Positions 27,377 through 53,544 of a stretch of 64,000 nucleotides of DNA are shown piece after piece. The stretch spans positions 248,001 to 312,000 of the forward strand of contig NZ_LT891959.1 in NCBI RefSeq assembly GCF_900186465.1, read 5' to 3'. Every line of letters starts with the position of its first letter. Position 1 is the stretch's first letter. Both the position numbers and the translations under genes were made by a program. The notes under the pieces were generated by a model. That model saw nothing but the letters and a program-made list of their open reading frames with translations, was not told where the DNA came from and did not search any database. Source of the stretch: Centipeda felix (GTDB lineage: Bacteria; Bacillota; Negativicutes; Selenomonadales; Selenomonadaceae).

Positions 27377-29803
27377 ATGTCATTTCATGCTAAACTACGA
27401 CACGGAAGGTATGTGATGGTGACCGCTGCCATACTCGCCTGTATGGGCAGCAGTATCACGTACGCTGCACCAGCGGAGGATGAGGGAACCCACGTATCAA
27501 CTGACGATATCCATGTGGATGCGGATTTCGATAAGGAGATGCTGAAGGAAGCCCCTGAAACGAAGACGATCATCTCCCGTGCCGATCTTGACCGCAAGGG
27601 TGCACGTACGCTCTCGGACGCACTCGCAGCGGAGCAGGATATCCAGATGGGCACGGACAATATGGGACGAAAGACCGTCAGCATCCGCGGCGCGGATGCG
27701 CGTCACGCGCTCATCCTCGTCGACGGGCGCAGACTGGCGGGAGGTCTCAGCAAGTTCTACGGTGCAACGGACGAGGTGAACCGTCTCGGACTCGACGATG
27801 TGGATCACATCGAGATCATCCGCGGCTCGGGTACGGCACGCTACGGTGGGGATGCCATCGGCGGCGTCATCAACATCGTCACGAAGATCTCCCATAAGAA
27901 GCGCATTCGCCTGACGACCGAGGGCTCGCTGATCGAGGCGGGCGGCAGCCAGTATAACCACAGCATCGGCTACTCTACGGGCGACCTCGGCGGCGGCACG
28001 TACATGGACTTCTCCTATGGCTGGAGCAAGACTGCGCCCTTCCTCTACGACAATGACGGCACATCGATGCAGTACTACGGCAAGCGCAATCCGATGAGCC
28101 TGCGCGCCGAATTTACACTCGGCAAAGATGAAACCCTCACCCTCTCGGCAGATCGCCAGACGGAGGATCTGAAAAAGGATACGACGCTCGGAAAATTTAC
28201 GGCGGGAAAAGGGATCGCCATGGTAGCGTCGGAGGATGCATGGCGCAATAATTTCAGCATCGACTGGAAGAAGCAAACGAGTCATGCGGACTACCGCGTG
28301 CGCCTCTATCAGACGGAGCATGATTCCGACGTGAACTATCATGTTTTTGGCAAAGGGGTACCTTATCGTCATTTCTATTTCGATAATTTCAATCGCAAGG
28401 ACAATGTGATCGAGGCATCGGTCGGTGTGATGGCACATGACAAGCACTATGTCACTGTCGGTGCAGACTATCATGACGAATACGGCGAGGGAACACGCAT
28501 CACGGTACCGGGACAGACGCCTCACGAAGAGACACGCATCTACACATTCCCGAACCCCTCGGATCCATCCAATCCGAATAAACGCTCCTATACCGGTAAT
28601 ATCTATGAGACATCCCTGAACTACTACAGCGCCTATATCTCGGACGATTGGCAGGTCGGCAAGAAACTGCTTGTCATCCCCTCCCTGCGCTATACGAATC
28701 ACAGCCACTTCGGCGTGAACGTCTCCCCGTCCATCGGCGCGACGTACAAGCCACGCAATAACGTCCGCATTAAGGCGAACATTGGCACGAGCTTCGCCAC
28801 GGGCGGTATTGCCGAGCTCTACCACGACTGGGAGATGTACGAGCCGTCACTGAACGCCTCACCGCCCATCCGAAACGGCTGGCTGTTCGAGGGCAATCCC
28901 GAGCTGAAGCCAGAAAAAGCCCTCAATATGGACATCTCTGTCGAAAAGGATTTCGACAAGAAGACCAGTGCAAAGCTCACCCTCTTCCGCAATGACTATA
29001 AGGACTATATGCAGATCATGTATAAAGGGGAAAAGGACAGCAAGAATCTCTACGGGCGCACATATTTTGATACGCATATACGCTATCCGGATCCATGGGG
29101 ATTCAGCAGCTATAACGATCTTGTGAATGCATTGAACGCTGCGTCAAATTGGAACGATATCGAAAACGATGTGCTTGGTGAATCAACTTATGCACAGGGC
29201 GTTCCCGCAACAGATGATGTCTATTCGTACGAAAATATTTCCAAGGCGCGCACACAGGGCATTGAGGCAGAGGTGACGCATAAAGTATCGCGTGACTTTA
29301 CGGTCAAGGCAGGCTATACTTATCTTGATGCCTATGACCGTCAGACGGGTAAACGCCTCGAAGGACGCGGACGCCACATGCTCAACCTCACGATGAGCTA
29401 CAGCGATCCGAAGAACGGCTGGCGCGCGACCCTCTGGGGTGACTACACGCGCAACTACCTCGATATCCGTGACCGCATCGCAACGGGACGCATCATCGGT
29501 GCCAATGGTGTTCAGAATCTGGAGCATGTTGATTTCACAAATCCGAACACAGGTGAGGTGTATCATCTGGTTCAGAACGAGACGGAGGCGAATAGGCTCA
29601 TGAGAGGTGACTTTGAGCACGGCTACACCCGCGAGAAAGTCACCCGTGAGAAGAACTACGGCCTGTGGAATCTGATGATCGAGAAGGACTACCACCACTT
29701 CCTCACGTTCTACGCCGGCATCACGAATCTGTTCAACCATTATGACCCGTTCCTCGGAATGGGCGGGCGCATCTACCGCCTCGGTATGCGCATGATGTTC
29801 TAA
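27377..29803 (+). CDS. TonB-dependent outer-membrane receptor, probably iron or siderophore/heme uptake
   Basis: The 808-aa product has a signal peptide (about 1-30, cleaved after SSITYAA), a plug domain (TIISRADLDRKGARTLSDAL, then VSIRGADARHALILVDGRRLAGG and IEIIRGSGTARYGGDAIGGVINIVTK), and a 22-strand-type barrel ending in RLGMRMMF with the terminal Phe. The ligand cannot be read, but the Fur box upstream and the following exbB, exbD and tonB genes indicate iron-regulated uptake. The ATG at 27377 is used; another ATG at 27370 in a different frame gives only seven codons. Typical receptor length. Confidence 0.93.
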   Translation: MSFHAKLRHGRYVMVTAAILACMGSSITYAAPAEDEGTHVSTDDIHVDADFDKEMLKEAPETKTIISRADLDRKGARTLSDALAAEQDIQMGTDNMGRKTVSIRGADARHALILVDGRRLAGGLSKFYGATDEVNRLGLDDVDHIEIIRGSGTARYGGDAIGGVINIVTKISHKKRIRLTTEGSLIEAGGSQYNHSIGYSTGDLGGGTYMDFSYGWSKTAPFLYDNDGTSMQYYGKRNPMSLRAEFTLGKDETLTLSADRQTEDLKKDTTLGKFTAGKGIAMVASEDAWRNNFSIDWKKQTSHADYRVRLYQTEHDSDVNYHVFGKGVPYRHFYFDNFNRKDNVIEASVGVMAHDKHYVTVGADYHDEYGEGTRITVPGQTPHEETRIYTFPNPSDPSNPNKRSYTGNIYETSLNYYSAYISDDWQVGKKLLVIPSLRYTNHSHFGVNVSPSIGATYKPRNNVRIKANIGTSFATGGIAELYHDWEMYEPSLNASPPIRNGWLFEGNPELKPEKALNMDISVEKDFDKKTSAKLTLFRNDYKDYMQIMYKGEKDSKNLYGRTYFDTHIRYPDPWGFSSYNDLVNALNAASNWNDIENDVLGESTYAQGVPATDDVYSYENISKARTQGIEAEVTHKVSRDFTVKAGYTYLDAYDRQTGKRLEGRGRHMLNLTMSYSDPKNGWRATLWGDYTRNYLDIRDRIATGRIIGANGVQNLEHVDFTNPNTGEVYHLVQNETEANRLMRGDFEHGYTREKVTREKNYGLWNLMIEKDYHHFLTFYAGITNLFNHYDPFLGMGGRIYRLGMRMMF

Positions 29804-29826
29804 TCTATAACAAAGGAGCTCAACTT

Positions 29827-30447
29827 ATGTCAGGTTTTGAAAGCGCAGTTCACCTCTTTCACAGCGGCGGATTCGTCATGTATCCCCTTCTGATTCTCTC
29901 GCTCATCACGCTCGCGATTGCGGTGGAGCGGTTCTACTACTACCGCATCAACCGCAAGGGTTCGCGTGTGTTCTTCCACGGAGTCTATCATGCCGCTGTG
30001 CAGAAGGACTTTGACACGGTCGGCAAACTCTGCAAGGAGTTCCCCTCCGCGATTGCCCGCATCATCGAGAGCGGTATGGAGAACGCATCCACGGAGACGT
30101 CGATGAAGGGCTCGTTCTCCGACCGTATGTCGATGGAGGCGATCAACTTCCGCCGCTATCTCGACTATCTGAGCGCGATTGTCACGATTGCGCCGCTGCT
30201 CGGTCTCTTGGGCACGGTCACGGGTATGATCCAGACGTTCAGCGTGCTCGATGCGGGCGGCGGCGCAGCTGCCATTACGGGCGGTGTCGGGGAGGCACTG
30301 GTCGCGACAGCAACCGGTCTTTGCGTGGCGATCATCGCGTTCTGCGTCTACACCTATTTCAGCCATCAGCTCGACACGATTGTGACGGATACGGAGCGTC
30401 TGTGCGCGACGATTGTCACGGCAAAGAAAGAAAGCTGGGATGCGTAA
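29827..30447 (+). CDS. exbB: ExbB/TolQ/MotA-family proton channel protein
   Basis: The 206-aa inner-membrane protein forms, with ExbD, the proton-driven motor of TonB. It has three membrane segments: near 17-36 (YPLLILSLITLAIAVERF), near 115-140 (AIVTIAPLLGLLGTVTGMIQTF), and near 155-180. GLLGTVTGMI is the family signature. An AAAGGAG ribosome binding site precedes the ATG. It lies 23 nt after the receptor gene. Confidence 0.94.
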   Translation: MSGFESAVHLFHSGGFVMYPLLILSLITLAIAVERFYYYRINRKGSRVFFHGVYHAAVQKDFDTVGKLCKEFPSAIARIIESGMENASTETSMKGSFSDRMSMEAINFRRYLDYLSAIVTIAPLLGLLGTVTGMIQTFSVLDAGGGAAAITGGVGEALVATATGLCVAIIAFCVYTYFSHQLDTIVTDTERLCATIVTAKKESWDA

Positions 30448-30854
30448 TGAATTTTAGCAATCACCGCATGAAGAAAAAGCCGGAGTTCATGATTATCCCG
30501 ATGATCGACATCATCTTCTTCCTGCTTGTTTTCTTCATGATGAACAGCCTGCAGACGGTCGCGCAGAAGGCGCTCGCCGTTCAGCTGCCGCAGGCGCAGA
30601 CCGCGACTGCTCCGGCACAGCTCCCGATCATTATGACGATCGACGAGCAGGGGCATATCACGATTGACAACAATCCTGTGAGCATCACGGAGTCCGCGGC
30701 AATCATGAAACGTCACATGGAGGAGAACCCGAATGCGGCGGTCGTCCTGCAGGCAGACAAGCGCACGGCACACGGTCAGGTCGTCGCCGTGATGGACATG
30801 CTCAAAGGAGCGGGGGTCAAACGGCTCTCGATCGCAGCAGAGCAGAAGGGATAG
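30447..30854 (+). CDS. exbD: ExbD/TolR-family biopolymer transport protein
   Basis: The 135-aa product has a single membrane segment (about 17-38) with the key aspartate in MIIPMIDIIFFLLVFFM, and a periplasmic domain (ITIDEQGHITIDNNPV, VVLQADKRTAHGQVVAVMDML). The start ATG overlaps the exbB stop as TAATG, so it is translationally coupled. A longer in-frame reading exists but would run deep into exbB. Confidence 0.94.
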   Translation: MNFSNHRMKKKPEFMIIPMIDIIFFLLVFFMMNSLQTVAQKALAVQLPQAQTATAPAQLPIIMTIDEQGHITIDNNPVSITESAAIMKRHMEENPNAAVVLQADKRTAHGQVVAVMDMLKGAGVKRLSIAAEQKG

Positions 30855-30858
30855 ATCG

Positions 30859-31665
30859 ATGGAGCAACATCTCTCATGGAGAAAAGCATATATCGTTTCT
30901 GCCGCCATTCACGTCGTCATCTTTCTCCTGCTCGCCGTCGGACTTGCTGCCGTCGTTGCAAAGCAGGAGCAGCAGGTCTATGAGATCGATCTGCAGGCAT
31001 CGGATTTCAGTCAGGGCAGCGGGCATGAGGGCGGCGGCAGTGCCGAAAGTCTTTTCCCGGAACCGCTGAAGGCGGAGGAGGTCGCAAAGCGCGTCGAGAC
31101 GGTACAGCAGATGCCGGTGCCCATAACGCCGTCCACAGCTGCCGTCCCATCCCCGGATGCAGTGACCATACCGGATGCGGCATCACCTGCTGCATCAGCG
31201 ACAGATTCCTCCGCGGCACCATCATCCTCCCCAAGCGGCTCTGTCTCAGGCACCAGCGGCGGCGGAGAAAGCGGCACAGGTTCGGGATTAGGAAACGGCA
31301 GCGGCGACAGCACGGGTGATGGAAAAGGTGCCGGTGCCGGAGCGGGGGCAAGTCAGGGATCAGGGGACAGTACGGCCCCCGGTACAGGCACCGCACCATT
31401 TGATGTGGCAGGATTCCGTGCCGCGGTCGATGCGAATAAGGAGTACCCCTATATGGCACTCAAGCGCCACCTGGAGGGAACGACGACGATCACCACAACG
31501 ATCAGCGCCTCGGGAGCAATCACAAGTGTCTCCGTCTCCTCCCCCTCCGGACACAGCGTTCTGGATGAGGCGGCTGTCGCCGCAGCGTATGCGGTCGGCA
31601 GCTATCCCAATCCCACCGGCAAAACGGTAACCGTAGATACGAACGTACGATTTAACATTCAGTAA
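30859..31665 (+). CDS. tonB: TonB energy-transducing protein with Gly/Ser-rich linker
   Basis: The 268-aa product has an N-terminal membrane anchor (about 10-34) with AAIHVVIFLLLAV, a long periplasmic linker (about 45-185), and a C-terminal TonB domain (YPYMALKRHLEGTTTITTTISASGAI, LDEAAVAAAYAVGSYPNP). The linker is rich in Gly, Ser, Thr and Ala (GGGESGTGSGLGNGSGDST) rather than the usual Pro/Lys/Glu. It is the last gene of the receptor-exbB-exbD-tonB operon and is followed by a strong terminator. Confidence 0.9.
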   Translation: MEQHLSWRKAYIVSAAIHVVIFLLLAVGLAAVVAKQEQQVYEIDLQASDFSQGSGHEGGGSAESLFPEPLKAEEVAKRVETVQQMPVPITPSTAAVPSPDAVTIPDAASPAASATDSSAAPSSSPSGSVSGTSGGGESGTGSGLGNGSGDSTGDGKGAGAGAGASQGSGDSTAPGTGTAPFDVAGFRAAVDANKEYPYMALKRHLEGTTTITTTISASGAITSVSVSSPSGHSVLDEAAVAAAYAVGSYPNPTGKTVTVDTNVRFNIQ

Positions 31666-40826: not shown

Positions 40827-40904
40827 ATATGATATCCCCTGCGCAAGCCACCGCCATCGATATAAATTCACCAATCGAAATATCCTTTTTTCCTGTACAC
40901 GCAC

Positions 40905-40939
40905 AAAAAAAGCGCAGAAAAACTTTCCTGCGCTTTTTT
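40905..40939. terminator. Terminator of the autotransporter operon
   Basis: AAAAAAGCGCAG and CTGCGCTTTTTT form a 12-bp stem with a 10-nt loop. On the minus strand it ends the autotransporter transcript 46 nt after the stop; it can act on both strands. Confidence 0.88.
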
Positions 40940-40941
40940 AT

Positions 40942-40988
40942 CAATCTACGCTGCCCCGACAAACTTCATCTTATCAGCAATTCCCTAG
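40942..40988 (+). repeat. Right-end relic of the MITE-like element at the autotransporter stop
   Basis: AATCTACGCTGCCCCGACAA then ACTTCATCTTATCAGCAATTCC matches the right 40 bp of the full element. CTAG (40985-40988) follows, and its first three bases are the autotransporter stop codon. Confidence 0.65.
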
Positions 40989-43900
40989 AAGCTCCAGCGC
41001 ATACCGGCATCCATACGCCATGCGGTTTTGATGTCGCCGCCGAAGGTCTTCTCGAAGTTGCCGTACAGGTTCGTGCGGTCGTTGAGTTTCACCGTGCCGC
41101 CGAGCTGTACGCCGACCCACGTATCGCTGCCGTTCTGCATCGTGCTCTTCGGTGTAAAGCCGTCCGAGTAGTCCGTATGCAGGTCGCCTGCAAACTCGTG
41201 GTAGAGCGAGACTCTCGCATAGTACGTGCTGCGCTCGGTCTCCTTGCCAAAGCCAAGGCCGAGACGCCCAATGAAGCTGTCAAACGGCTTCTGGTGCACA
41301 TACATGTTCATGCCGATGTAGTCTGTGCTGCCGGTATAGCTTACACCGTTCAGATGGCTGTAAATCAGCTCAACCTGCGGCTCAATGAAGGTTCCTCCCT
41401 TCATCGCGATGCGCTTGCCGTACTCTGCCGAAAGCGAACCGCCCCATGTGCTGTAATCACCCTTCACATAGTGGCCGAAGTCGTTGTAGACGGTGTACTC
41501 GTTGTTCAGGCGGCCGACCTTTGCGATGAGATCGACATACTGTCCGGATTTGCCCGTCCATGTGCCGTAGATGCCGAGGTTGCCCTCTTTGTTCTTGCCG
41601 CTGCCGGCTGCGTAGGTGGAGGAGCCCTTCATGTAGCTTCCTGCAATACCAACGCGCCAGTCATTTCCAACCTTCTTGTCATAGCCGACCTGAATGGTGG
41701 AGTAGTTCATGCGGAAGTTGGCGTTGTCCTTGTTGCTGGTGGCCTTGCCGCGGTAGGCACGTGCCCAGATGCCGGTATCCTGCGGAGAGAGGCGGAGGTC
41801 GCCCATACGCTTCATGAGGTCGTTCGCCTCAGCCCGCCAAGCCATCGCGGATGCGGTCATCGCGGATTTGACGCCGCTCATGAGCTTTGTCTCATAGTCA
41901 CCGTATTCGATCTGCGTATTTGGATTGGGATTCGGATTGGGGTTCGGGTTCGGATTCGGGTTTGGATTGGGATTCGGATTCGGGTTTGGATTGGGATTCG
42001 GATTCGGGTTTGGATTGGGGTTCGGGTTGGGATTCGGGTTCGGTTCTGTTGCCGGCGTGTAGACGTAGCCGCCCTGGCCGCTCGCCGCATCGAATGTGAT
42101 GTTCTCGATACGCTTGCTTGCAGACGATGTCGTGAGGCCCTCAGCGATCTCAGCCTTACCCGTGAGATTCCTCTCTCCCGTCGTATAGGCCGTATAGTAG
42201 AGCTTGTTCGCGAGTGCGTTGAGCGCTGCGCTCACGAGATTCTTGTCTGCTGCCTTTGTGGATTCCGTATTGAGGCCGACATTGTCTGTCACCATCTTGA
42301 CGAGACTGCCTGCCGCCGCTTTCCCGATCGTGACCTTTCCGCCGTAGATCGTCGTCGGCGTCGCTGCGTCATGGCGATAGAGCATCGTCGTCGAACCGTT
42401 GAACTCATCGATCATGAGATCGCCCGTTTCGCCAAGTCCCTTCTCCTCAATGGAGGAAGAACCCGTCTTTACGGGGGCGCCGCTGAGGCTTTGACTCGAC
42501 GCGAGGAAACGGTTCGTTCCCGTCATGTCGATGAAGCCGCCTTCGCCCGTGAAATACTTAACTTTGCTGATTGCGGCGTTGTTGTCCTGGTCTTTCTGCT
42601 CCGGCGTGATGGCGTTGTGCCAGATCGCACCGTCGGAAAGTTTAAGCTGCAAATTGTCTCCAATATTGAAGCCTGTCCAGTTCGTGCCCGCACCGCTCAT
42701 CTCCACCTTCATGGAGCCGTTGGAGAATCCCTTCCAATAGGCACCGTTCTTCATAAAGAGGTTGACTGCACCGAGCTGGCCCGGCGTCACGCCGTAGCCG
42801 CGCGTATCGGCATAGTTGCCGATCCAGTGTGAATCCGCGGTCGCAAGACCAACGCTCACGCGGCCTTTCGTGCCCATGCCGCCGTTCGTGACGATATCGC
42901 CCTCGACAACGGCGCGGTTCGTACCGGCACCGTTCGCGAGACCGTCCGCTCCCTTCGTGACGTTGAAGTTGACGGTACCGTAGTTCTGCGTGACAAATTC
43001 GCCATAGGCGCGGATCGCTGCCCATGCACCATTGATGGCACGGATGGAACCGCCGCCGATGTCAATCTTCGAGGCGACAGCACTCACCGCTTCATTTGCG
43101 CCCTTGCCGTTTGCCGCATCATTTCCGTCTGCCAGCACATCGACAAGACCATCGATCGTGATGTTCGACTCGACACCGTTCACGCCGTTCATCGACTTGA
43201 TGACGGCAACGTTCGTCTTTGCGGTTCCGTTGGAACGCACCTTCAGCACCTTATCCTCAAGGTTGCTGCCGCCGTTCTGAATGTGGATCGCGCCGCCGCC
43301 GTTGACAAAGAGCGCCGCAGTCTGTCCGCCTGCCGTGCTCTCTGCATCAATAGAGATGGCTCCGGCATTCTTGATATTGACTTTCGAGTTCTTCCCAATG
43401 GACGAGATGCCAGTCGTGCTGACATCCGTCTTTGTATTGACGGCGAGGTTCTTTCCGCTCAGATCGATATCGAGTGTCTTTCCATTATTGGCACTGGATA
43501 TCGCCGCGCTGATATTGCTCATCCACGCGCCGGCCGAAATCAGATCCTTGCCGGTCGTAATGGTGGAGTCTTTCGTGAAGATATACCTGCCGTCGGCCTT
43601 GCGGACACCGGTATTCACATACGGAGCATCATGCACCTCATCGCCTGTGATGGCGGTGGTGAACTCCGTCTGTGTCTGAGCGTCCGGCGGCTCCACAGCG
43701 GGGGTATAGACATAGCTGCCCTGGCCGCTCGCCGTGTCGAACGTGATGTTCTCAAGGCGTTTGCTTACAGACGATGTAGTCAGACCTTCGGCAATTTCCA
43801 CCTTGCCTGAGAGGCTGCGCTGACCGCTCGTATATGCGGTGTAGTAGAGCTTCTTTGCCAGAGCGTCGAGCGCTGCGCTCACGAGATTCCTGTCGGCTGC

Positions 43901-46900
43901 CTGTGCGGATTCCGTATTGAGTCCCGCATTGTCCGTCGTCAGGGTGATGACGCTGCCGCCCGCTGCGTTTTTGATGCGGAAGTCGCCGCCCGTCATCACC
44001 GTCGGCGTCGCGGCATCGTGCTCGTAGAATACGCGCGCATAACCACTGTAGTTGTCGATCGTGATGTCATTGGCGTTCTTCTGGAAGATCACACCCGCAT
44101 GGGAGGCGTCACTGCCGCCCGTAAACGAGGCAAGATGACTGCCCAGCCACTTGTTTGTAACACCGGATTTTCGTTCATTCGTCCAGTGGGCACCATTTTG
44201 CAAGGTCAAATTGAACTGCCCCACATCGTGTGCCGTGAAGCCGCCCTTCTGGAAATCCGCCCGATTGACGTCATACGTCGCGGCGCCCATCCACGAAGAA
44301 TCTGCCGTTGTCAAAGAAACATTCAGTACACCATTCGAGTCAAAATCGACAAGTTGTCCACCGGTGTATTCGACTGTCTTCTTTCCATACTCACGCGTAA
44401 CATACATATCGCCTGTGATGTTTGTCTGTCTGCTGCCGCTGATGCCCTCTGGCGTATTGATGTTCACCGTGCCCTTTTGGACATGTACGGCACGATACTG
44501 CTTCGTTTGATCGACGTCCTCGGCAGCCGACATCGTACCGCCGCCGACATCGATCACGCTGTCTGCGCCGACGGTCTTCAGCACACTGCCCTTGATATTC
44601 TGAATATCGACATTGCTCTTGACTGTAATCTTGGACTCATCGGCCGTTGTTTGGAGTGCAGCCAGATTGCGTCCGTCATCTGCGCCCTTATTTTTCGTAT
44701 CCACGCGGTCAGCACGCACGGACTGCACGGTGAGATCACCGTCAATCGTAACATCGCTCGGAGAGCCGATGGTACCGGAGGTCTGAATAGCCGTCGCATT
44801 GTATCCCTTCGCATGAACGTCTTCGATCGTAACAGGTCCTTGAATATAGATATGGGCATTCGCATCCGTCTGGATGCCGTTCGCCGCACGTGTATCCGTA
44901 TTCGACGCCTTAATGGTCAGCGCCTTTTTCTCACCACTGTTCACAATCCGAATGCTCTTGTTGTTGCCGCCGTAGATCGCACTGGCAATCTGGTTCTTAC
45001 TGTTTGCCTCAATGCGCAGGCTGTGCCCGTTCATATCGACGACCATCGGATGCTGCTTGTCATAGGCACTGTTTTCTGTATAGAGCGCCGAGACGACGCG
45101 GTTTCCCTTGGTATTTGGCTGTGCAGCAAGTGCCTGGCGGTCATAGGTCAGCGTCTCCGATTCCTTAATCGGATCGGTCGTCACCTCGGACTGCGGCGTA
45201 TAGACATAACTGCCCTGCCCCGTCGTTCCATCGAACGTAATATCTTCGATGCGTTTGCTGGCCGCCGATGTTGTCAGGCCTTCGGCGATCTCCGCTTTAC
45301 CTGTGAGATTGCGTTCGTGCGTCGTATAGGCCGTGTACCAGAGCTTGTTGGCGAGTGCATTGAGCGTCGCGCTGACAAGGTTCTTGTCCGCCGCTTTCGT
45401 CGACTCCGTATTGAGGCCCGTGCTGTCCGTCGTCAGCGTGATGGCGCTGTCTGCCGCTGCGTTCTTGATGCGGAAGTCGCCGCCCTTCATCGTCGTCGGC
45501 GTTGCCGCCTCATGCGCGTAGAATACCCGCGTATAGCCGCTGTAGTTGTCGATCGAGATGTCCTTATCGTTCTTCTGGAAGATCACCCCCGCATTGCTGG
45601 CATTGCTGCCGCCTTTCAAAGAGGCGAGATGGCTGCCGGCAAAAGAGATCTTTTCGAGAACAGCAGAGGACTGATTCCAATCTTGATTGTTCCACACGGC
45701 ACCGTTCGTCAATAAGAGGCTCACTCCATTTGCTGCCTCACCCTCCTTATGAACAACACCGTTCAAAGCGGACTCCGCTGTAGTCAGTGACAGATCTGTA
45801 CTGCCATTGGCTCCTGAATGAATATTTCCACGCAAGATTACTTTATGCGTGCCTCCCTTGTTTACCTTAATGGTCCCATTGTTGTCGATAGACCAACCAT
45901 CCAAAGAGGCTTTGTTCAGTGTGACATCCAGACCGTCCGTCTCGATTGCAGCATCCTTACTCACGGAAAGTCCCTTTGCCGCATCACCGCTCGTGGCAGA
46001 TATATCCAAATTCCCTGTTATTTTGATTGTTGAGCCGTTCTTAGCATTCCAAACACCATATGCCTTTCCCGTGCCACTCTTGACATTGATCTTTACCGTA
46101 TCTGCAGCAATCGCAATGCCCTTTTCCCCACTGTTTTTAATCCCCGTGACAAGTCCGTTATTTCCTTCTCCCTTGACCGTCAGCACATGTCCGCCAGCAT
46201 CAATCGTCAGCGGATTTTTGGGAAATCCCGTGTTGGAAATGGCTCCGGCATAAGATGTCTTGGATATGGTCGTATCCTTCGTGAACTTATAGTTTCCCGG
46301 ACTAGGTTCAACATTGGCATCCTTGTACTCGGCAACTTCCTTCTGCGTGAGCTGCTCAGTGAACTCCGTCTTCGTCTGCTCCCCGCTCGGCGGAGGCGGA
46401 GGAGTTGGCGGGACCGATGTATAGCTGCCTTGTCCGCTCGCCATATCGAATGTGATATTCTCAATGCGCTTGCTGGCAGCAGAAGTGGTTAGTCCTTCAG
46501 CGATCTCCGCCTTGCCGGAGAGATTTCTTTCGCCCATCGTATAGGCCGTGTACCAGAGCTTGTTGGCGAGCGCATTGAGTGTATTATCCACCAGCTTCTT
46601 ATCGGCGCCCGATGCTGCCTCCGTATTCAAACCGCTGTTGTCCGTCGTCAGCGTAATGCTGCTGCCCTCAGACGCCTTGCCAATCTTCAGCGCAGCGCCG
46701 ATGATCGTCGTCGGCGCTGCAGCGTCATGCGCATAGAATACACGCGTATTGCCGCTGTAGTTGTCGACCATGATATCCTTGCTGTCTCTCTGGAAGATCA
46801 CGCCCGCATGAGCAGCATCATCGCCGCCCTTGAGGAAACGCAGCCAACTCCCTGTGAATTTCGCTGCAGTGAGTGCACTCTTCTGCGTGTTGTAGTCCCC

Positions 46901-49900
46901 ATTCGCCCAAACTGCACCGTTCTGCAGGGTCAGCACATTGCCTTTTGCTGCGCCGTTTTGCTGAAGAATGACCGGGAGACTGAATGCTTCATCCTCTTCT
47001 TCATCCTCGCCGTCGCTCGGCGCCACCTTTTGGATGACGCCGTTCAGGGCGGACTGCCCTGTCGTCAGCGAGATATTGGTGTTTCCTTCCTCACCCGTCT
47101 GGACATTGCCGTTGATGACCACCTCATGGCTGCCGTCGCTGTTGACCGTAACCGTGCCATTGCTGTTGCTGATGGCCCAAGCGCCGCCCACCGAATCCTT
47201 GTTCAGCTCTACATGCAGCCCATCCGTTTCAATCGCTGCGCCTCGACTCGTAACGAGCCCCTGCGCAGTCTGGTTGCTCTGCGCCTTGATATCGAGATCA
47301 CCCTTGATTGTGATGACAGAGCCGTCCTGATTATTGCGTATGCCAAAAGCACGACCGTCGCTGCTCTTTACATCAATCTTCAGCGTATCCGCCGTGATCT
47401 TTATGCCATCCTTGCTGTTGTTGTCCACACCGAGGATAAAGTTGCTGCCGTCGCCGATCAAGGTCAGCTTATGCTCCCTTGCATCGACATAGAGCAGCTG
47501 TTTTGGATAGGTTGCTGCTGCGATGATGCCGTCATAGGAGCTTCTGCGAATCGTCGTGTCCTTCGTGAACTTGTAATTGCCGGGCGACGGCTCGACATTG
47601 GCCGCCTTGTACTCGGCAACTTCCTTCTGTGTAAGCTGCGAGGTGAACTCCGTCTTTGTCTGTTCCGTGCTTGGCGGCGGAGGTGTAGGACCTCCACTGA
47701 CGTAGCTGCCGCGTTCCGTCGCAAAGGTAATGTTTTTATTGATGGAGGAGGCCGTCAGTCCCTCACCGATCGCGAGTTTGCCTTTGAGTTTCCCGTCGGC
47801 GAAATTCTTGTACGTCAGCTTATTGGCAAGCGCATTCAATACGGTGTCTTGATTGGCTGCTGTCACCCCGTTTGCGTCGGTAAAGAGTGTGAAAACATTC
47901 TCAGTTCCCACAGCCTTGCCGATGACAATATCACCTCCCTTAAAGGCTGTTGGTGTTGCTTCATCATGCCGATAAACAGCTGCTGTATGGCCGCTGTAAT
48001 TATCAAGCGTCATTGCATCCGAATCCTTTTGGTAGATGATGCCGCGTGTGGCCTCTGTCGTCCCGCCATAGAAATTGGTGACACGGCTTCTGCCGACATA
48101 GATCTTCTTTCCTGCGACATCAGTGAGCGCGCCCGCGCCGATGTCTTCGTTGTCCTGATAGTAGCGCGCATTGCGCCCCTCATTCAGCCATGCTGCACCG
48201 TTCTGCAGATAGAGATTCGCCGTACCGCCGTTATCCACAAGGCCGTGCAGGTAGGACTTGTCTGTCATGAGGGCGACGTCGAGTCTGCCCTTGGGCAGCA
48301 CAAATAGGTCGCCGTCGAGCTTTACATCAGCAATTCCATTTATTTTTTTGCCGTTGCCGAGTTTCGTCCCGTCATCGCCCATATTCATGGAAATCGCGCC
48401 CTGATAGGCAGCAAGCGCATAGTAGCTGTACTTCATAGCGGCAGGCACTTGGATGGAGCCGCCGCCTGCGATGCGTACGCTGCTGTCCTTCGCATTCGTC
48501 GTCACGCCGTTGCCGTAGACGGTCATATCCACATCGCCGTTTACGGTCACATTGCTCTTTTCGACCTGCGTAAGAATGCCTGCATTGTTGAAGCGCGAGA
48601 ATACATTCTCACGATTGAGCGGAATACCCCACTGATCCGTCTGTTCACCTGCGATCTTCAGATTGCCGTTGATGCGGATCCCCGATGCGGTGCCCGCTTC
48701 ATAAGATTTTTCTCCAAAACGGTCACTCTTTTGGATCGCGACGCCGTTGCCGCCAAGGCCGCCTGTCATCGAGATACTGAGCGGTCCGTTGATGGTAAGC
48801 TGCGCCGCCTTGTTTTTCATCGCATCAAGCTGAACGGCATTTGTCAGGGTATTGCCGCCGTCAAGCCCTCGCGTGAGGATATTGATGCCCTTTGCCGCAC
48901 TTACCGTGAGATCCGTTCCCCTGGCATAGATTCCCGTCGGATTTCCCACCGTGTTTTCCACCTGCAGCTGCAGGAGGTTTTTCTTTGCGCTGATATTAAG
49001 GCGCTTACCTCCGGCTGCAGAAATCGCCGCAAGCACATTCGTCGACTTGTCGCCGAGCTTATCCTGCCCGATGCTGACAACGGTATCACCGTCCCAGCTC
49101 TGCCGCGTCGTGACCGTATCGGTGTATACGGCATTGTCTTTCCAGACGGCATTCTCATTGCGTGTCGCTGCGGTCGTCGTTCCGCCCAGTTCCGGCGGCA
49201 GCGTCATGACGACGGATGCCGTCGTGCCGTAGACCCAGTCCGGCTCGATCATCGTGATCTTGTTGAAGCGGCTGAATGCCTTGTTCTCGGAGAAATCCTT
49301 CGCCTGCCATATATGTTTCGCCGCATCATCGCCGTCCGTATAGGCCTGCAGAGTATCGCCAAGCTCCAGCCAGAGACGCTTCGTATAGTATTCGGCGTTG
49401 AGCTTGCCGAACCATCCCTCTTGTTCGTGCGCAACGGCAATCTCCGTCCAATCGTCGGGATGTTCCGACATCAGATTGGACATGGTCGTCTGGTAGACAT
49501 GCGCATTGATCTGGCTGCCGCTTGGGCTGAGATTGTACGTCATGACGTAGGCAGTGCCGTTCGGCAGGATCTTCAGATCGCGCATATCCTCGCCGGTTCC
49601 CTTGACATGCTCTGGAATAGAAGCGCGGCGCTGCTCCGTGCCCAGGATGCGCCCCGTATTCTGATCGATCTTGGCGATGTTGAGCGCCGTATAGTGGGTA
49701 TTGCCCGTCCCGTTATAGTGCTGATAGCCGCCGATGCAGGAAATGAGGATATGGTCGTTGAACTTATTGAGTCTGCCCTGATCGATGTTGCGGCTGATGC
49801 GCGTATAGCTGCCGAACTTCAGGGTGCCGTCGTCCTGGATGTCGTACTGCATCAGGAAGCCGTCATCGTAGGGATCATAGCCCCCAAGCGGATTGACGGA

Positions 49901-50566
49901 CGCCGCCACATAGAGCCTGCGCCCCTCGACGAGCAGCGCCTCACCGTGCACCTGTGCTTTTGCAGGGTCACCCGTGTAGGTTTTGCCTTTCTCGCCCTTT
50001 GAATCTTCGTCGAGGTTTTTGAACGTCTCGGTGAAGTTGTAGCCGCAGTACTGCTTGATGTCATTCTTGAGGTTGACAACAGCTCTTTTGTTTTCCATCA
50101 ATCGCTTGCCGTTTTGGCGCACGACACCGATCTGCCCGAGATCATAGCCGGTCATATAAATATATTCATCGCTGCCTGCCGCCGCATGCATATTCGGTAC
50201 ATCTGCCGTCTTTCCGCTCGCCACGCTCGCCGCCGCACCAGCAGAATTTGGATCGATGAGCTTCGTCCCTTCCAGTTCCGTCGTGCTATAGGTGTATTGA
50301 CGCAGCAAGACCATACTCTTGCCTTTCTGATGGAAGCCAAAGGATGCGGGATCGCGGTTGAGGTTTTTCAGCACGCCGACCTGGGGATCGGCATCCACCT
50401 GCGTCGTCACTCGGGAACCAGTCACGGTCCCCATCTCGCTGTTTCCGTAGTCCGATGGGACGGTCGAGACGAGGTTTGCCGCACTTGCAGTCGAAGCACA
50501 GAGCAGTCCGCCCATAATGAGAACAGAAAGCCGCATACGCTGCACTTTACCAAAATGCGATTTCAT
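40985..50566 (-). CDS. Giant autotransporter with propeller-like head and repeated passenger modules
   Basis: The 3193-aa product has a signal peptide (about 1-29, ending STASA) and a distinct N-terminal region (about 30-430) rich in short beta-like repeats with YIYMTGYDLGQIGVV, LYVAASVNPLGGYDPYDDG and IDQNTGRILG, possibly a beta-propeller. A long beta-helix-like passenger follows, built of repeated modules. A (Pro-Asn)21 linker (41918-42043) leads to a C-terminal autotransporter beta-barrel of about 300 residues (DTGIWARAYRGK, GYDKKVGNDWRVGIAGSYM), ending MRWSF. The ATG follows AGGAGG. It lies 27 nt after a BtuB-like receptor, behind a cobalamin riboswitch, so a role in cobamide acquisition is inferred. 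Adhesin-type function is the alternative. Confidence 0.9.
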   Translation of the reverse strand: MKSHFGKVQRMRLSVLIMGGLLCASTASAANLVSTVPSDYGNSEMGTVTGSRVTTQVDADPQVGVLKNLNRDPASFGFHQKGKSMVLLRQYTYSTTELEGTKLIDPNSAGAAASVASGKTADVPNMHAAAGSDEYIYMTGYDLGQIGVVRQNGKRLMENKRAVVNLKNDIKQYCGYNFTETFKNLDEDSKGEKGKTYTGDPAKAQVHGEALLVEGRRLYVAASVNPLGGYDPYDDGFLMQYDIQDDGTLKFGSYTRISRNIDQGRLNKFNDHILISCIGGYQHYNGTGNTHYTALNIAKIDQNTGRILGTEQRRASIPEHVKGTGEDMRDLKILPNGTAYVMTYNLSPSGSQINAHVYQTTMSNLMSEHPDDWTEIAVAHEQEGWFGKLNAEYYTKRLWLELGDTLQAYTDGDDAAKHIWQAKDFSENKAFSRFNKITMIEPDWVYGTTASVVMTLPPELGGTTTAATRNENAVWKDNAVYTDTVTTRQSWDGDTVVSIGQDKLGDKSTNVLAAISAAGGKRLNISAKKNLLQLQVENTVGNPTGIYARGTDLTVSAAKGINILTRGLDGGNTLTNAVQLDAMKNKAAQLTINGPLSISMTGGLGGNGVAIQKSDRFGEKSYEAGTASGIRINGNLKIAGEQTDQWGIPLNRENVFSRFNNAGILTQVEKSNVTVNGDVDMTVYGNGVTTNAKDSSVRIAGGGSIQVPAAMKYSYYALAAYQGAISMNMGDDGTKLGNGKKINGIADVKLDGDLFVLPKGRLDVALMTDKSYLHGLVDNGGTANLYLQNGAAWLNEGRNARYYQDNEDIGAGALTDVAGKKIYVGRSRVTNFYGGTTEATRGIIYQKDSDAMTLDNYSGHTAAVYRHDEATPTAFKGGDIVIGKAVGTENVFTLFTDANGVTAANQDTVLNALANKLTYKNFADGKLKGKLAIGEGLTASSINKNITFATERGSYVSGGPTPPPPSTEQTKTEFTSQLTQKEVAEYKAANVEPSPGNYKFTKDTTIRRSSYDGIIAAATYPKQLLYVDAREHKLTLIGDGSNFILGVDNNSKDGIKITADTLKIDVKSSDGRAFGIRNNQDGSVITIKGDLDIKAQSNQTAQGLVTSRGAAIETDGLHVELNKDSVGGAWAISNSNGTVTVNSDGSHEVVINGNVQTGEEGNTNISLTTGQSALNGVIQKVAPSDGEDEEEDEAFSLPVILQQNGAAKGNVLTLQNGAVWANGDYNTQKSALTAAKFTGSWLRFLKGGDDAAHAGVIFQRDSKDIMVDNYSGNTRVFYAHDAAAPTTIIGAALKIGKASEGSSITLTTDNSGLNTEAASGADKKLVDNTLNALANKLWYTAYTMGERNLSGKAEIAEGLTTSAASKRIENITFDMASGQGSYTSVPPTPPPPPSGEQTKTEFTEQLTQKEVAEYKDANVEPSPGNYKFTKDTTISKTSYAGAISNTGFPKNPLTIDAGGHVLTVKGEGNNGLVTGIKNSGEKGIAIAADTVKINVKSGTGKAYGVWNAKNGSTIKITGNLDISATSGDAAKGLSVSKDAAIETDGLDVTLNKASLDGWSIDNNGTIKVNKGGTHKVILRGNIHSGANGSTDLSLTTAESALNGVVHKEGEAANGVSLLLTNGAVWNNQDWNQSSAVLEKISFAGSHLASLKGGSNASNAGVIFQKNDKDISIDNYSGYTRVFYAHEAATPTTMKGGDFRIKNAAADSAITLTTDSTGLNTESTKAADKNLVSATLNALANKLWYTAYTTHERNLTGKAEIAEGLTTSAASKRIEDITFDGTTGQGSYVYTPQSEVTTDPIKESETLTYDRQALAAQPNTKGNRVVSALYTENSAYDKQHPMVVDMNGHSLRIEANSKNQIASAIYGGNNKSIRIVNSGEKKALTIKASNTDTRAANGIQTDANAHIYIQGPVTIEDVHAKGYNATAIQTSGTIGSPSDVTIDGDLTVQSVRADRVDTKNKGADDGRNLAALQTTADESKITVKSNVDIQNIKGSVLKTVGADSVIDVGGGTMSAAEDVDQTKQYRAVHVQKGTVNINTPEGISGSRQTNITGDMYVTREYGKKTVEYTGGQLVDFDSNGVLNVSLTTADSSWMGAATYDVNRADFQKGGFTAHDVGQFNLTLQNGAHWTNERKSGVTNKWLGSHLASFTGGSDASHAGVIFQKNANDITIDNYSGYARVFYEHDAATPTVMTGGDFRIKNAAGGSVITLTTDNAGLNTESAQAADRNLVSAALDALAKKLYYTAYTSGQRSLSGKVEIAEGLTTSSVSKRLENITFDTASGQGSYVYTPAVEPPDAQTQTEFTTAITGDEVHDAPYVNTGVRKADGRYIFTKDSTITTGKDLISAGAWMSNISAAISSANNGKTLDIDLSGKNLAVNTKTDVSTTGISSIGKNSKVNIKNAGAISIDAESTAGGQTAALFVNGGGAIHIQNGGSNLEDKVLKVRSNGTAKTNVAVIKSMNGVNGVESNITIDGLVDVLADGNDAANGKGANEAVSAVASKIDIGGGSIRAINGAWAAIRAYGEFVTQNYGTVNFNVTKGADGLANGAGTNRAVVEGDIVTNGGMGTKGRVSVGLATADSHWIGNYADTRGYGVTPGQLGAVNLFMKNGAYWKGFSNGSMKVEMSGAGTNWTGFNIGDNLQLKLSDGAIWHNAITPEQKDQDNNAAISKVKYFTGEGGFIDMTGTNRFLASSQSLSGAPVKTGSSSIEEKGLGETGDLMIDEFNGSTTMLYRHDAATPTTIYGGKVTIGKAAAGSLVKMVTDNVGLNTESTKAADKNLVSAALNALANKLYYTAYTTGERNLTGKAEIAEGLTTSSASKRIENITFDAASGQGGYVYTPATEPNPNPNPNPNPNPNPNPNPNPNPNPNPNPNPNPNPNPNPNPNTQIEYGDYETKLMSGVKSAMTASAMAWRAEANDLMKRMGDLRLSPQDTGIWARAYRGKATSNKDNANFRMNYSTIQVGYDKKVGNDWRVGIAGSYMKGSSTYAAGSGKNKEGNLGIYGTWTGKSGQYVDLIAKVGRLNNEYTVYNDFGHYVKGDYSTWGGSLSAEYGKRIAMKGGTFIEPQVELIYSHLNGVSYTGSTDYIGMNMYVHQKPFDSFIGRLGLGFGKETERSTYYARVSLYHEFAGDLHTDYSDGFTPKSTMQNGSDTWVGVQLGGTVKLNDRTNLYGNFEKTFGGDIKTAWRMDAGMRWSF
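41918..42043 (-). repeat. Hexanucleotide tandem repeat encoding (Pro-Asn)21
   Basis: Twenty-one six-base units of the form CCN AAY on the coding strand (126 bp) encode alternating Pro-Asn. The units differ slightly at third positions. The array joins passenger and translocator, and is a likely site of copy-number change, always in frame because the unit is six bases. Confidence 0.92.
42057..47900 (-). repeat. Five copies of a passenger module inside the autotransporter gene
   Basis: A segment of about 85 residues recurs at roughly 42057-42320, 43705-43960, 45199-45470, 46416-46690 and, more diverged, 47696-47900. Each copy has the order LTTDN..LNTES, LVSAALNALANKLYYTAYT, then KAEIAEGLTTS..SKR, then ENITFD and GQGSYVYTP. 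Each is preceded by a VIFQKNANDITIDNYSG-type block and followed in two cases by QTKTEFTEQLTQKEVAEYKDANVEPSPGNYKFTKD-type sequence. The pattern indicates duplication of whole passenger modules. Confidence 0.85.
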
Positions 50567-50573
50567 AATGCTC

Positions 50574-50597
50574 CTCCTTTTATCGGTGATTCTTTAG
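50574..50597 (+). repeat. Possible right-end relic of the MITE-like element at the receptor stop
   Basis: TTTTATCGGTGATTCT followed by TTAG resembles the right terminus TTTTATCAGCGATTCC and its YTAR target. It lies in the 27-nt gap between the BtuB-like receptor and the autotransporter and touches the receptor's stop codon. Confidence 0.4.
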
Positions 50598-53116
50598 AAC
50601 TCATAGCGGAAGCTCATATAGTAAGTGCGTCCCTGCAGCGGATACTCGATATTTACCCAACTGGGTTCGCTTAAGTAACGCTGCACGCTGTGCACCTTTA
50701 GCTTCGACGCTGCATCGAACACGTCATTGCAGCCAATCGACAGCGTCATATCCTTGCGCGGCGACCACTTGAATCCCAAGTTGATTGTTTTCAACGCCGC
50801 TCTCGGCCTGCCGGCAAGTTCCTTTTCCACAGGATCCCTGACCTGCGGGATGGCATAGTGCGTGTAGTACTGCGAAACATAGTGCCCCTCACCGAAGAAG
50901 AGCCACTTCTCCGTCGGGCGATAGGTCAGTCGGAGATTGCCTTCCCACTTCGGTTGATAGGTTGGACGCACCTCGAACCAATCATAATGGACGCCCGGGG
51001 AGGAGTCCCTGCGCTGCGCCGCTATATTGAGGTACGTGCCTTCGAGGTCGAGATCGAATTTCTTCCAGTGGAAATTCGTCTGCAGCTCAATGCCGTGCGC
51101 CTTCCCGCGCATATCGTTGAAGTACGAGCTGTAGTTGAGTCCTGCACGGTAGAGGTAGAGCATGCGCTGTGTATCGCGCCAGAAATATGTGAGCGTCGTT
51201 CGATTATCTGCCCCAAGGAACTTGCCGTCCCAAATGGCACTGAGATCAAACTGCTTGCCATACTCGGGCTGTGGAAATTTCGCGCCGCTCCCCTTGTAAT
51301 CCATTGGAGCCGGCATGATTCCTGCGCCGTCACCTGCGATTTCGTACATATTGAGCAGGCGGAAGTAGGTGCCGCCCGTCATACGCATCGTAAAGTGGTT
51401 GTTGAATTCTTTTTTTAATGCGAGCTGCCATGTCACCTTGGAATCCACCTGACTGTCCTCCGGGTGAACCCAGCGATATGTTTTGAGTGGATTGAATCGA
51501 CCGAACTGACTGTATCCTATAATCTGTGAACGATTGTAGCGGATGGCAGGCGTCAGCTGCCATGAACGCTTCTTGTCAAGCGTAATTGTATCCTGCAGCT
51601 GCAAGTTAAAGATATTTTGATCGAACTGGTTGCGCATCTGTGCCCAGAGATTGCCGATACCCGCCTGCACGTCATCGATGACCTCATTAAGCCCATCGCC
51701 GTCAATATTCATGCGCTCGTGAGAGTAATTCATTTGGAAGTCGAGCATATTGTTCTTGCTGAGCTGATAGGTGCCATCCACCTGTACATTGTATTTCTTC
51801 GAGCGATAGCGGCTCCACTCCCGCATGGGAATCTTAATCATATAGCGCAGACCGTCGTGAATATTCTCGGCGCGGTAGTCCTTGCTCTGGGTGAGGTAGT
51901 CGACCATCCAGCCCCATTCATAGTTCTTCCCCATATAACGGCGCTGTACGAGCAGCTCCTTTGCACTGATTTTTTGATGCCGCTTGTCATATTTATAGAG
52001 ATCGTATTCATCAACGAGGTGCCCAGGTGTAATCATATCAAAATAGCTTCGGTAGTCGACCCAGAGACTGTCGGGCAGATGGCGATCGACAGTCTTGTAT
52101 GTTCCCTTGATCATCCAATCGTCATTCTGCCATTTGACAAGCAGATCCGAATTGCTGTAGTCATTGTATTGCCGCCGGCGGTGCGGATCATCCGCAGCAG
52201 TGACCAACCGCCCCCCATTGTCCTCCAGCCACTGGATGCAATCATCTACATTCTGCTGCCATGCTCCGGCGCCATGTGCGATATCAAACGCGGCTTTCCC
52301 TGCCGGTGTCATAGCGAGGTAGCCTTGGAGTTCTGTCCGTGTCGCAACGATCTGTCGTCCAATGTCGGTGTTTGTATAGAACTGCTCCGCCGCATAGCTG
52401 CGGTAGGGGAAGTCACCATCACGCGATTCGTGATTGTAGCCAAAAAGCAGGCTGCCGGCACCTAGGGGGGCTGTGATCTCAACGGAGGCTTTTTTCCCGC
52501 CGAAGGAGCTCGGTCCAATCTCGGCGGATCCATGTGCGCCCGTCGGTTTCTTCGTCACGACGTTGATGATGCCGCCGATGAAGGTGCCCGCAAAGCGAGC
52601 CGGGATGTAGCCGCGGTAGACCTCGATGCGCTCGATATTGCTGACGGGGATCGTCGAGATATCGACCGCCGCATCGCCGCCGAGGTTCGTCAGCACGCCG
52701 TCGACGAATACGCCGACCTGTGCTGCCGTCGAGCCGCGTACGGTGACCGTCGTATACTGCCCCTTGCCCTGCACCTCGCGTACATGCACGCCGGGAACCA
52801 TCTTGAGAAAGTCAGGCAGTGTCTTTTGTTCGCCCTTGAACTCCTCCGGGCGTATAATGGTCACGGTGCCGGGGGAGAGAATATCTTCCCATGTGGGACG
52901 CTTCGCCTCGACGGTGATATCAGAAGTGCTATATTTCAACGGAGGACTCGATGATGTCGGCTCCATCTGAACCATGGCAGATGCCTGTTCTTCTTCCCCG
53001 CCAGTATCCGTTGCGGTACCTCTTGCTGCGGCAATCATCGGATGATGCAGCGCACCAGACAACAGCATACCCATAACGCCCAACACAAGCCGTCTTTGTT
53101 TCCGTCGAGACAACAT
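50594..53116 (-). CDS. BtuB-like TonB-dependent receptor under cobalamin riboswitch control
   Basis: The 840-aa protein has an N-terminal signal region, a short linker, and a plug domain (ITVEAKRPTWEDILSPGTVTIIRPEEF, FLKMVPGVHVREVQGKGQYTTVTVRGSTAAQVGVFVDGVL, IERIEVYRGYIPARFAGTFIGGIINVVTKKP), then a large barrel ending YYMSFRYEF. The plug resembles general TonB receptors, not only E. coli BtuB, so the cobamide assignment comes mainly from the riboswitch upstream. GAGGA stands seven bases before the ATG. The autotransporter gene follows after 27 nt. No BtuFCD transporter is in the window. Confidence 0.88.
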   Translation of the reverse strand: MLSRRKQRRLVLGVMGMLLSGALHHPMIAAARGTATDTGGEEEQASAMVQMEPTSSSPPLKYSTSDITVEAKRPTWEDILSPGTVTIIRPEEFKGEQKTLPDFLKMVPGVHVREVQGKGQYTTVTVRGSTAAQVGVFVDGVLTNLGGDAAVDISTIPVSNIERIEVYRGYIPARFAGTFIGGIINVVTKKPTGAHGSAEIGPSSFGGKKASVEITAPLGAGSLLFGYNHESRDGDFPYRSYAAEQFYTNTDIGRQIVATRTELQGYLAMTPAGKAAFDIAHGAGAWQQNVDDCIQWLEDNGGRLVTAADDPHRRRQYNDYSNSDLLVKWQNDDWMIKGTYKTVDRHLPDSLWVDYRSYFDMITPGHLVDEYDLYKYDKRHQKISAKELLVQRRYMGKNYEWGWMVDYLTQSKDYRAENIHDGLRYMIKIPMREWSRYRSKKYNVQVDGTYQLSKNNMLDFQMNYSHERMNIDGDGLNEVIDDVQAGIGNLWAQMRNQFDQNIFNLQLQDTITLDKKRSWQLTPAIRYNRSQIIGYSQFGRFNPLKTYRWVHPEDSQVDSKVTWQLALKKEFNNHFTMRMTGGTYFRLLNMYEIAGDGAGIMPAPMDYKGSGAKFPQPEYGKQFDLSAIWDGKFLGADNRTTLTYFWRDTQRMLYLYRAGLNYSSYFNDMRGKAHGIELQTNFHWKKFDLDLEGTYLNIAAQRRDSSPGVHYDWFEVRPTYQPKWEGNLRLTYRPTEKWLFFGEGHYVSQYYTHYAIPQVRDPVEKELAGRPRAALKTINLGFKWSPRKDMTLSIGCNDVFDAASKLKVHSVQRYLSEPSWVNIEYPLQGRTYYMSFRYEF

Positions 53117-53206
53117 AGATTATCCTCATTTCTGTAGAATTACCAAAATAAATAATCCCGTCATTATATTCAATCAATAGTATAGAACATACTGGACTCT
53201 CCTTTC

Positions 53207-53237
53207 AAAAAAATACCGCCTTCTGAACGAAGGCGGT
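53207..53237 (-). terminator. Riboswitch expression-platform terminator
   Basis: On the minus strand ACCGCCTTC and GAAGGCGGT pair around a 5-nt loop and are followed by ATTTTTTT. It lies between the cobalamin aptamer and the receptor start, so B12 binding can end transcription here. Two further small hairpins (about 53253-53275 and 53281-53304) lie between it and the aptamer and may form the alternative structure. Confidence 0.85.
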
Positions 53238-53339
53238 CATATCATTTCAAAAAGGCGGCAGAAAATCCTGCCGAAGATACTCTGCTTCACAAAGAAGCAG
53301 AGATGATCCCCTTCCCATCGCTCGTAGGTACCGATTCCG

Positions 53340-53525
53340 AACAACGTCCGAATCGACGGTGATGTTAAAGCAGGCAATTCTCCTGGCTCAGATTCCTCAC
53401 CCTGTCAAACCTTCCCAGAATTTCTTCCAGTGGCATACGATGACGGGGCTCCTCTTACAGTGGCGGGACCGCTTCGGCTTATACCGAATTCCTTATTAAG
53501 TCTTTCGACACCTGTTTCCTTACAA
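53340..53525 (-). promoter_or_regulatory. Cobalamin riboswitch aptamer
   Basis: Reading the minus strand, the hallmark segments come in order: GGTGTCGAAAGACTTAATAA, GAATTCGGT, GCCGAAGCGGTCCCGCCACT, GAGCCCCGTC, TGCCACTGG, GGGAAGG, GAGGAATCTGAGCCAGGAGA and TGCCTGC, then ACATCACC closing P1. The B12-box-like part GAGCCAGGAGAATTGCCTG lies at about 53370-53389. It controls the BtuB-like receptor and, through the operon, the autotransporter. High B12 should reduce expression. Confidence 0.95.
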
Positions 53526-53544
53526 TATGAATTTTTTCACTCTT

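Follow-up and report, generated by a model that had tools for sequence, protein, structure and literature searches.

A cobalamin-riboswitch operon of Centipeda felix with a TonB-dependent receptor and a giant autotransporter that carries a predicted beta-propeller head

In Bacteroides the TonB-dependent B12 transporter BtuB is covered by BtuG, a surface lipoprotein which forms a propeller-shaped lid on it (PMC6143338, PMC10404256), and the central cavity of BtuG2 binds B12 (PMC10404256). BtuG was reported to be exclusive to Bacteroidetes, and its homologues are lipoproteins (PMC6143338). A TonB-dependent receptor (TBDR) with a propeller partner is also found in XusA-XusB (9gbc, 9hqe). The BtuB of E. 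coli, with 594 aa, has no propeller partner. Classical autotransporters of type Va with an EspP-type barrel (TIGR01414/PF03797) consist of a signal peptide, a long passenger and a C-terminal barrel.

The window analysed here, a stretch of 64,000 nucleotides from the oral, Selenomonas-type Negativicute Centipeda felix (NZ_LT891959.1), contains a locus which resembles the Bacteroides BtuB-BtuG system in that a TBDR stands, in a cobalamin-riboswitch operon, beside a surface-destined propeller as a plausible capture part. Unlike Bacteroides BtuG, this propeller has neither lipobox nor lipid anchor and would be held by the stalk and barrel of an autotransporter, no similarity of its sequence to solved BtuG chains was detected, and its host class is the Negativicutes. 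The locus likewise shares with XusA-XusB the combination of receptor and propeller partner, while XusA-XusB differs by its xenosiderophore ligand and its lipoprotein anchor. A sequence-only reading of the window had placed a cobalamin riboswitch, a receptor and a giant autotransporter at 40985-53530. The interval proved exact, and all elements were recovered: a match to RF00174, a receptor with the PF07715 plug, a gap of 27 nt and an autotransporter with a PF03797 barrel (Table 1).

Table 1. Features of the receptor-autotransporter operon in window coordinates.
Feature	Position	Strand	Evidence
Sigma-70-type promoter-like site TTGACA-18-TATCAT, directly upstream of the aptamer	53574-53545	-	11/12 consensus matches
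Cobalamin riboswitch aptamer, RF00174	53530-53356	-	92.9 bits, E = 8.8e-22, positions 1-189 of 189 (full length)
Expression platform between aptamer and receptor start: two terminator-like hairpins, each followed by a T run	53273-53256, 53237-53215	-	motif scan
Promoter-like site TTGAAA-18-TATACT, 3' of the riboswitch terminator	53208-53179	-	10/12 matches
TonB-dependent receptor, 840 aa, BtuB-like, putative partner of the propeller	53116-50594	-	plug PF07715 at residues 81-183
Helical insertion, receptor residues 241-309	52190..52396	-	model helices, block pLDDT about 70-93
Receptor-autotransporter gap, 27 nt, with ribosome-binding site of the autotransporter	50567..50593	-	AAAGGAGGAG ahead of ATG
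Autotransporter, 3193 aa	50566-40985	-	start 27 nt past the receptor stop codon
Signal peptide, residues about 1-29	50480..50566	-	read from sequence
Predicted beta-propeller head, residues about 30-450, candidate cobamide-binding domain	49217..50479	-	AlphaFold2 model
Stalk, residues about 480-2830, five GKAEIAEGLT-type motif repeats	42077..49129	-	motif positions
Asn-Pro repeat linker, residues 2835-2889	41900..42064	-	sequence; low-complexity matches
Autotransporter beta-barrel, residues 2933-3193	40988..41770	-	PF03797, TIGR01414, EspP barrel in PDB
Hairpin GCGCAG...CTGCGC with T run, 3' of the autotransporter	40904..40933	-	read from sequence; 10-nt loop, beyond the limits of the hairpin scan

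The aptamer upstream of the receptor is one of six RF00174 copies in the genome, and its covariance-model score of 92.9 bits compares with a gathering score of 31.5 bits. In most sister species a promoter-like sequence TTGACA...TAATAT is located at the position equivalent to the riboswitch promoter, and a final terminator, in most of them TCCGTCTG...CAGACGGATTTTT, is found at the equivalent place. The platform is thus of the terminator type, and cobamide-responsive control of the downstream genes is predicted. The hairpin behind the autotransporter is, as far as its sequence tells, the probable end of the transcript. The cobalamin aptamers of some sister species (L029 2670-2884, L031 2305-2518, L034 2572-2910) carry inserts in a hairpin loop which range from tens to more than 100 nt and are partly repeat-like. 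Other cobalamin riboswitches of the genome (L023 5081-6981, L025 6982-12027) precede an apparent DASS-type transporter and methylmalonyl-CoA mutase subunits, named here by reading their sequences. The window also harbours a molybdenum cofactor riboswitch (RF01055, 51.1 bits) at 1570-1720 on the minus strand.

The second promoter-like site, past the riboswitch terminator, is a possible B12-independent start, in a scanned region where about 10 sites with at least 9/12 matches are expected by chance. It is what speaks for an explanation in which the autotransporter is not controlled by B12, is driven by a separate promoter, be it its own or an internal one, and stands next to the receptor without consequence. 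We consider this highly improbable: the sister species lack the site at the corresponding position, the order of the genes is kept across families, and a scan of the operon strand in the 27-nt gap saw neither promoter-like nor terminator-like sites. A separate B12-independent promoter in front of the autotransporter would have spoken against the sequence-only reading; one was sought, and none was seen. Complete operons, both of the genus and of genome G046, have 12-28 nt between the two genes, and most of the complete sister operons have 12-15 nt there.

The receptor is a TBDR according to the PF07715 profile, which it matches above the cut-off, the barrel in its model, and structural matches which span residues 63-840. 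Its best NCBIfam name is TIGR01779 (TonB-B12) with E 6e-23, although the 81.2 bits remain below the cut-off of 599.7, and PRK10641 (BtuB) reaches 68.2 bits versus a cut-off of 836. Because the equivalog cut-off is missed, we did not file this protein as BtuB. A search of PDB sequences gives E. coli BtuB as top match, over the plug. In the structural comparison of the AlphaFold2 model (pLDDT 70) BtuB is again in the top row (Z 31.5, 3.0 A, 520 aligned), with the Bacteroides BtuB receptors close behind. FoxA and PqqU are tied with it, which counts against the uptake reading given below. E. coli BtuB is also shorter than the 840 aa of the receptor, which has a long helical insertion. In the model this insertion is probably an extracellular loop; among members of the family, the stretch that holds it, between flanking conserved motifs, is anywhere between 62 and 243 aa long. 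A second TBDR of 808 aa, with an apparent TonB-type protein downstream, is encoded in the window at 27377-31665 on the plus strand.

The autotransporter has the composition of type Va proteins, namely a signal peptide, a passenger and a C-terminal barrel matching PF03797 (residues 2933-3172, E 8.7e-46, 157 bits versus a cut-off of 26) and TIGR01414 (E 1.8e-53). It differs from the classical members by the predicted propeller at its tip, by putative B12-riboswitch control and by sharing an operon with a receptor. At E<0.001 it is the only protein of the genome with a PF03797 barrel. The signal peptide is of the ordinary type, and the lipobox cysteine of BtuG lipoproteins is absent from the cleavage site. 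The motifs of the GKAEIAEGLT type are located at residues 929, 1351, 1756, 2254 and 2803. In such a protein the N-terminus is expected to be farthest from the membrane, and therefore a stalk of about 2,300 residues would carry the head far out from the cell surface.

Since most of the passenger is repeat stalk, the protein could be an adhesin or biofilm protein which is switched on by B12 starvation and has no role in uptake. According to PMC7549365, autotransporters of Veillonella parvula, a related Negativicute, drive biofilm formation and autoaggregation. Nevertheless, the comparison with relatives makes this explanation very unlikely. Their propeller autotransporters have total lengths anywhere between about 1,700 and 4,700 aa, and the part that is conserved is the head; moreover, in many genomes a stand-alone head without any stalk lies beside the same type of receptor and a riboswitch. 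Most likely, then, it is in the N-terminal 450 residues or so that the autotransporter does its work.

The head was modelled by AlphaFold2 from an alignment of 14 relatives (pLDDT 76, pTM 0.83, the core mostly above 80). A structure search with VIA-align has as its best row BtuG1 (8blw_B, from the BtuB1-BtuG1 complex) with Z 21.9 at 3.5 A over 298 aligned residues, and nine more BtuG-type rows are among the top 24 (8bmy, 8ptf, 8bn0, 8bmz, 8ptd, 8bai, 8okv, 3dsm and 8bmx; Z 20.7-21.6). BtuG1 and BtuG2 structures with bound B12 are included in these best matches. Because YncE, at Z 21.8, and propellers of the lactonase-like kind, at Z 21.6, score just as high, the match is not specific for BtuG, which for the modelled head is one among several equally close folds. 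The best matches are seven-bladed propellers, and therefore a seven-bladed type of beta-propeller is predicted, with a blade count that is taken from structural matches of Z about 21-22. Propellers bind ligands at the starts of their strands. The conserved polar residues N125, H207 and R329 are found at the starts of predicted strands and may form a candidate pocket in the model.

By sequence the heads form a separate family. No matching family was found for it in Pfam and NCBIfam, searches of Pfam, NCBIfam and PDB sequences with the head itself gave nothing meaningful, and a profile of the head family had no match at E<=10 among the solved BtuG chains. As it has no lipobox and no homology to BtuG was detected by sequence, we did not file the autotransporter as a BtuG; it may work like one.

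A fold match does not give the ligand, and the one found here cannot tell one ligand from another. Siderophore receptors, too, have propeller lids, and XusB (9hqe) and XusA-XusB (9gbc) are among the matches. The propeller might therefore bind something other than a cobamide, such as heme, a xenosiderophore or a B12-binding protein of the host, which the receptor would then import, with B12 only tuning expression. This we consider unlikely. Many of the receptor's top structural rows are BtuB entries, and a cobalamin riboswitch, which other ligands would not need, accompanies the receptor-propeller pair across the class.

The evidence for this comes from a search for relatives by the head alone, blind to gene context; their genes are open reading frames, some of which are cut by contig ends. 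The head was detected in 10 of the 189 genomes in the search set of the family Selenomonadaceae and in 41 of 380 Negativicutes genomes, from 22 genera. Carriers include Selenomonas noxia, S. artemidis (Centipeda artemidis at NCBI), a Megamonas MAG and Sporomusa termitida. The head in genome G024 is 91% identical to that of the window, whose organism is close to S. artemidis. Three arrangements occur: (i) a TBDR followed by a propeller-autotransporter, as in the window; (ii) a TBDR followed by a stand-alone propeller of about 415-480 aa; and (iii) a stand-alone propeller beside a single chain of about 1,400-1,800 aa, in which an autotransporter barrel is followed by the plug and barrel of a TBDR. 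A TBDR on the same strand lies within 700 nt of 47 of the 54 propeller genes. Among the other seven, one has a TBDR truncated where the contig ends, and three follow a different autotransporter gene.

A same-strand RF00174 match at the gathering score was found at most 6 kb upstream of 40 out of 49 propeller genes tested, versus 0.6 expected; the relatives are not independent, so that the associated probability should not be read at face value. For three more genes sub-threshold matches are in the right place. Chance adjacency of propeller and riboswitch was rejected on these numbers. The position beside a TBDR and under a cobalamin riboswitch, which is the genetic context of BtuG, is also that of the window's propeller and of most of its relatives. 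Absence of the gene pair from related genomes would have argued against the sequence-only reading; the pair is instead conserved in many genera of the class.

Starting from the receptor, members of the TBDR family (E<1e-100) were found in 33 of the 380 class genomes. A propeller is present in 32 of them, and in the remaining one the contig breaks off within the receptor. Both the TBDR family and the propeller are missing from six genomes of the genus to which the window belongs. Not every receptor of the family has a propeller, as three lack a detectable adjacent one. These three (L117 10115-13530, L118 3676-7351, L119 3083-6641) adjoin a small protein, about 180 aa long, that looks secreted. 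In Sporomusa termitida, plasmid NZ_CP036260 carries riboswitches and a TBDR followed by a 'hypothetical protein' which is the propeller. Among 398 genomes drawn from the phylum, the sole match outside the class is a weak one in genome G581, with a TBDR adjacent. The propeller of this locus (L124 1361-5510) has a signal peptide and a hydrophobic-basic tail at the C-terminus, and this tail is perhaps a further way of anchoring.

The 22 heads that are borne on autotransporters make up, in a maximum-likelihood tree, one side of a single branch (support 100/99, one change), next to stand-alone propellers. Therefore a single fusion event suffices to explain them, and multiple origins of the autotransporter fusion are not supported. 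The tree distances of TBDRs and propellers are correlated with a Spearman rho of 0.92, a value reached by none of 2000 shuffles of the partners within multi-pair genomes. This co-variation, which holds also for paralogues within one genome, indicates that the pair travels as a unit, an outcome that linkage alone could also yield.

The relatives display several unusual variants. The chains with two outer-membrane barrels, about 1,400-1,800 aa long with the PF03797 barrel before the TonB plug and TBDR barrel, are encoded at L102 1554-5945, L104, L105, L106, L107, L108, L109 7587-11981, L111, L112, L113, L114 and L116, and also on the Sporomusa termitida plasmid NZ_CP036260 (40432-45762); their genes, next to that of a stand-alone propeller, are under cobalamin riboswitches. 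In most stand-alone propellers a signal peptide is not recognisable. Those of L038, L039, L078, L080-L082 and L093 lack one and have at their end a helical, charged tail (RLAREARELA...), which is possibly an unusual export signal, while those of L083, L087 and L089 possess a signal peptide and have another tail. Near several stand-alone propellers we found a peptidase of the C1 family together with a conserved protein that is about 375-390 aa long (...WFxNLF...EAKHYVF...), as in L039 4190-6281, L080, L081 and NZ_CP036260 50195-52395. In genome G034 (L029-L030) a tandem array consists of a TBDR, a propeller autotransporter of 1696 aa, a long autotransporter without detected propeller and a propeller autotransporter of 3151 aa.

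The sequence-only reading had suggested, on the strength of gene order, that the autotransporter is a partner of the receptor in the manner of BtuG. The predicted propeller fold of the head, the recurrent pairing under a riboswitch and the co-varying trees support this, with the role narrowed to the head as the candidate B12 domain, the rest being stalk. With a probability of roughly three in four we read the locus as a B12-repressed cobamide-uptake operon in which a BtuG-like capture propeller, held by an autotransporter, serves the TBDR; B12 binding, contact, hand-over and repression are what we infer in it. When cobamides are scarce, the riboswitch would let transcription run through the receptor gene into that of the autotransporter. 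The receptor would act as a BtuB-like TonB-dependent transporter, and the autotransporter barrel would export the passenger with the propeller at its N-terminal tip. There the propeller would capture cobamides outside the cell, as BtuG does in Bacteroides, and pass them to the receptor. Stalk and barrel would stand in for the lipid anchor of BtuG, and the far-reaching head might either dock on the receptor or merely concentrate B12.

For the class as a whole we favour, with somewhat less confidence, a more general proposal. The Negativicutes would own a family of cobamide-capture propellers which is not recognisably related to BtuG in sequence, is partnered with TBDRs and is borne on the surface in various ways: at the tip of an autotransporter, as a free protein with or without signal peptide, or beside barrel-fused receptors. 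We found no precedent in the open-licence papers searched for an autotransporter with a B12-linked propeller or in an operon with a B12 riboswitch and a receptor, and our results point to a receptor-propeller system for the presumed capture of B12 which was not previously described in Negativicutes.

In the mouth and the gut there is competition for cobamides as nutrients. If our reading is true, propeller-assisted B12 uptake would be more widespread and not a peculiarity of Bacteroidetes, with a second version in the diderm Firmicutes. It would also give a job to a family which is now annotated as 'hypothetical protein', and a nutrient role to some of the giant autotransporters.
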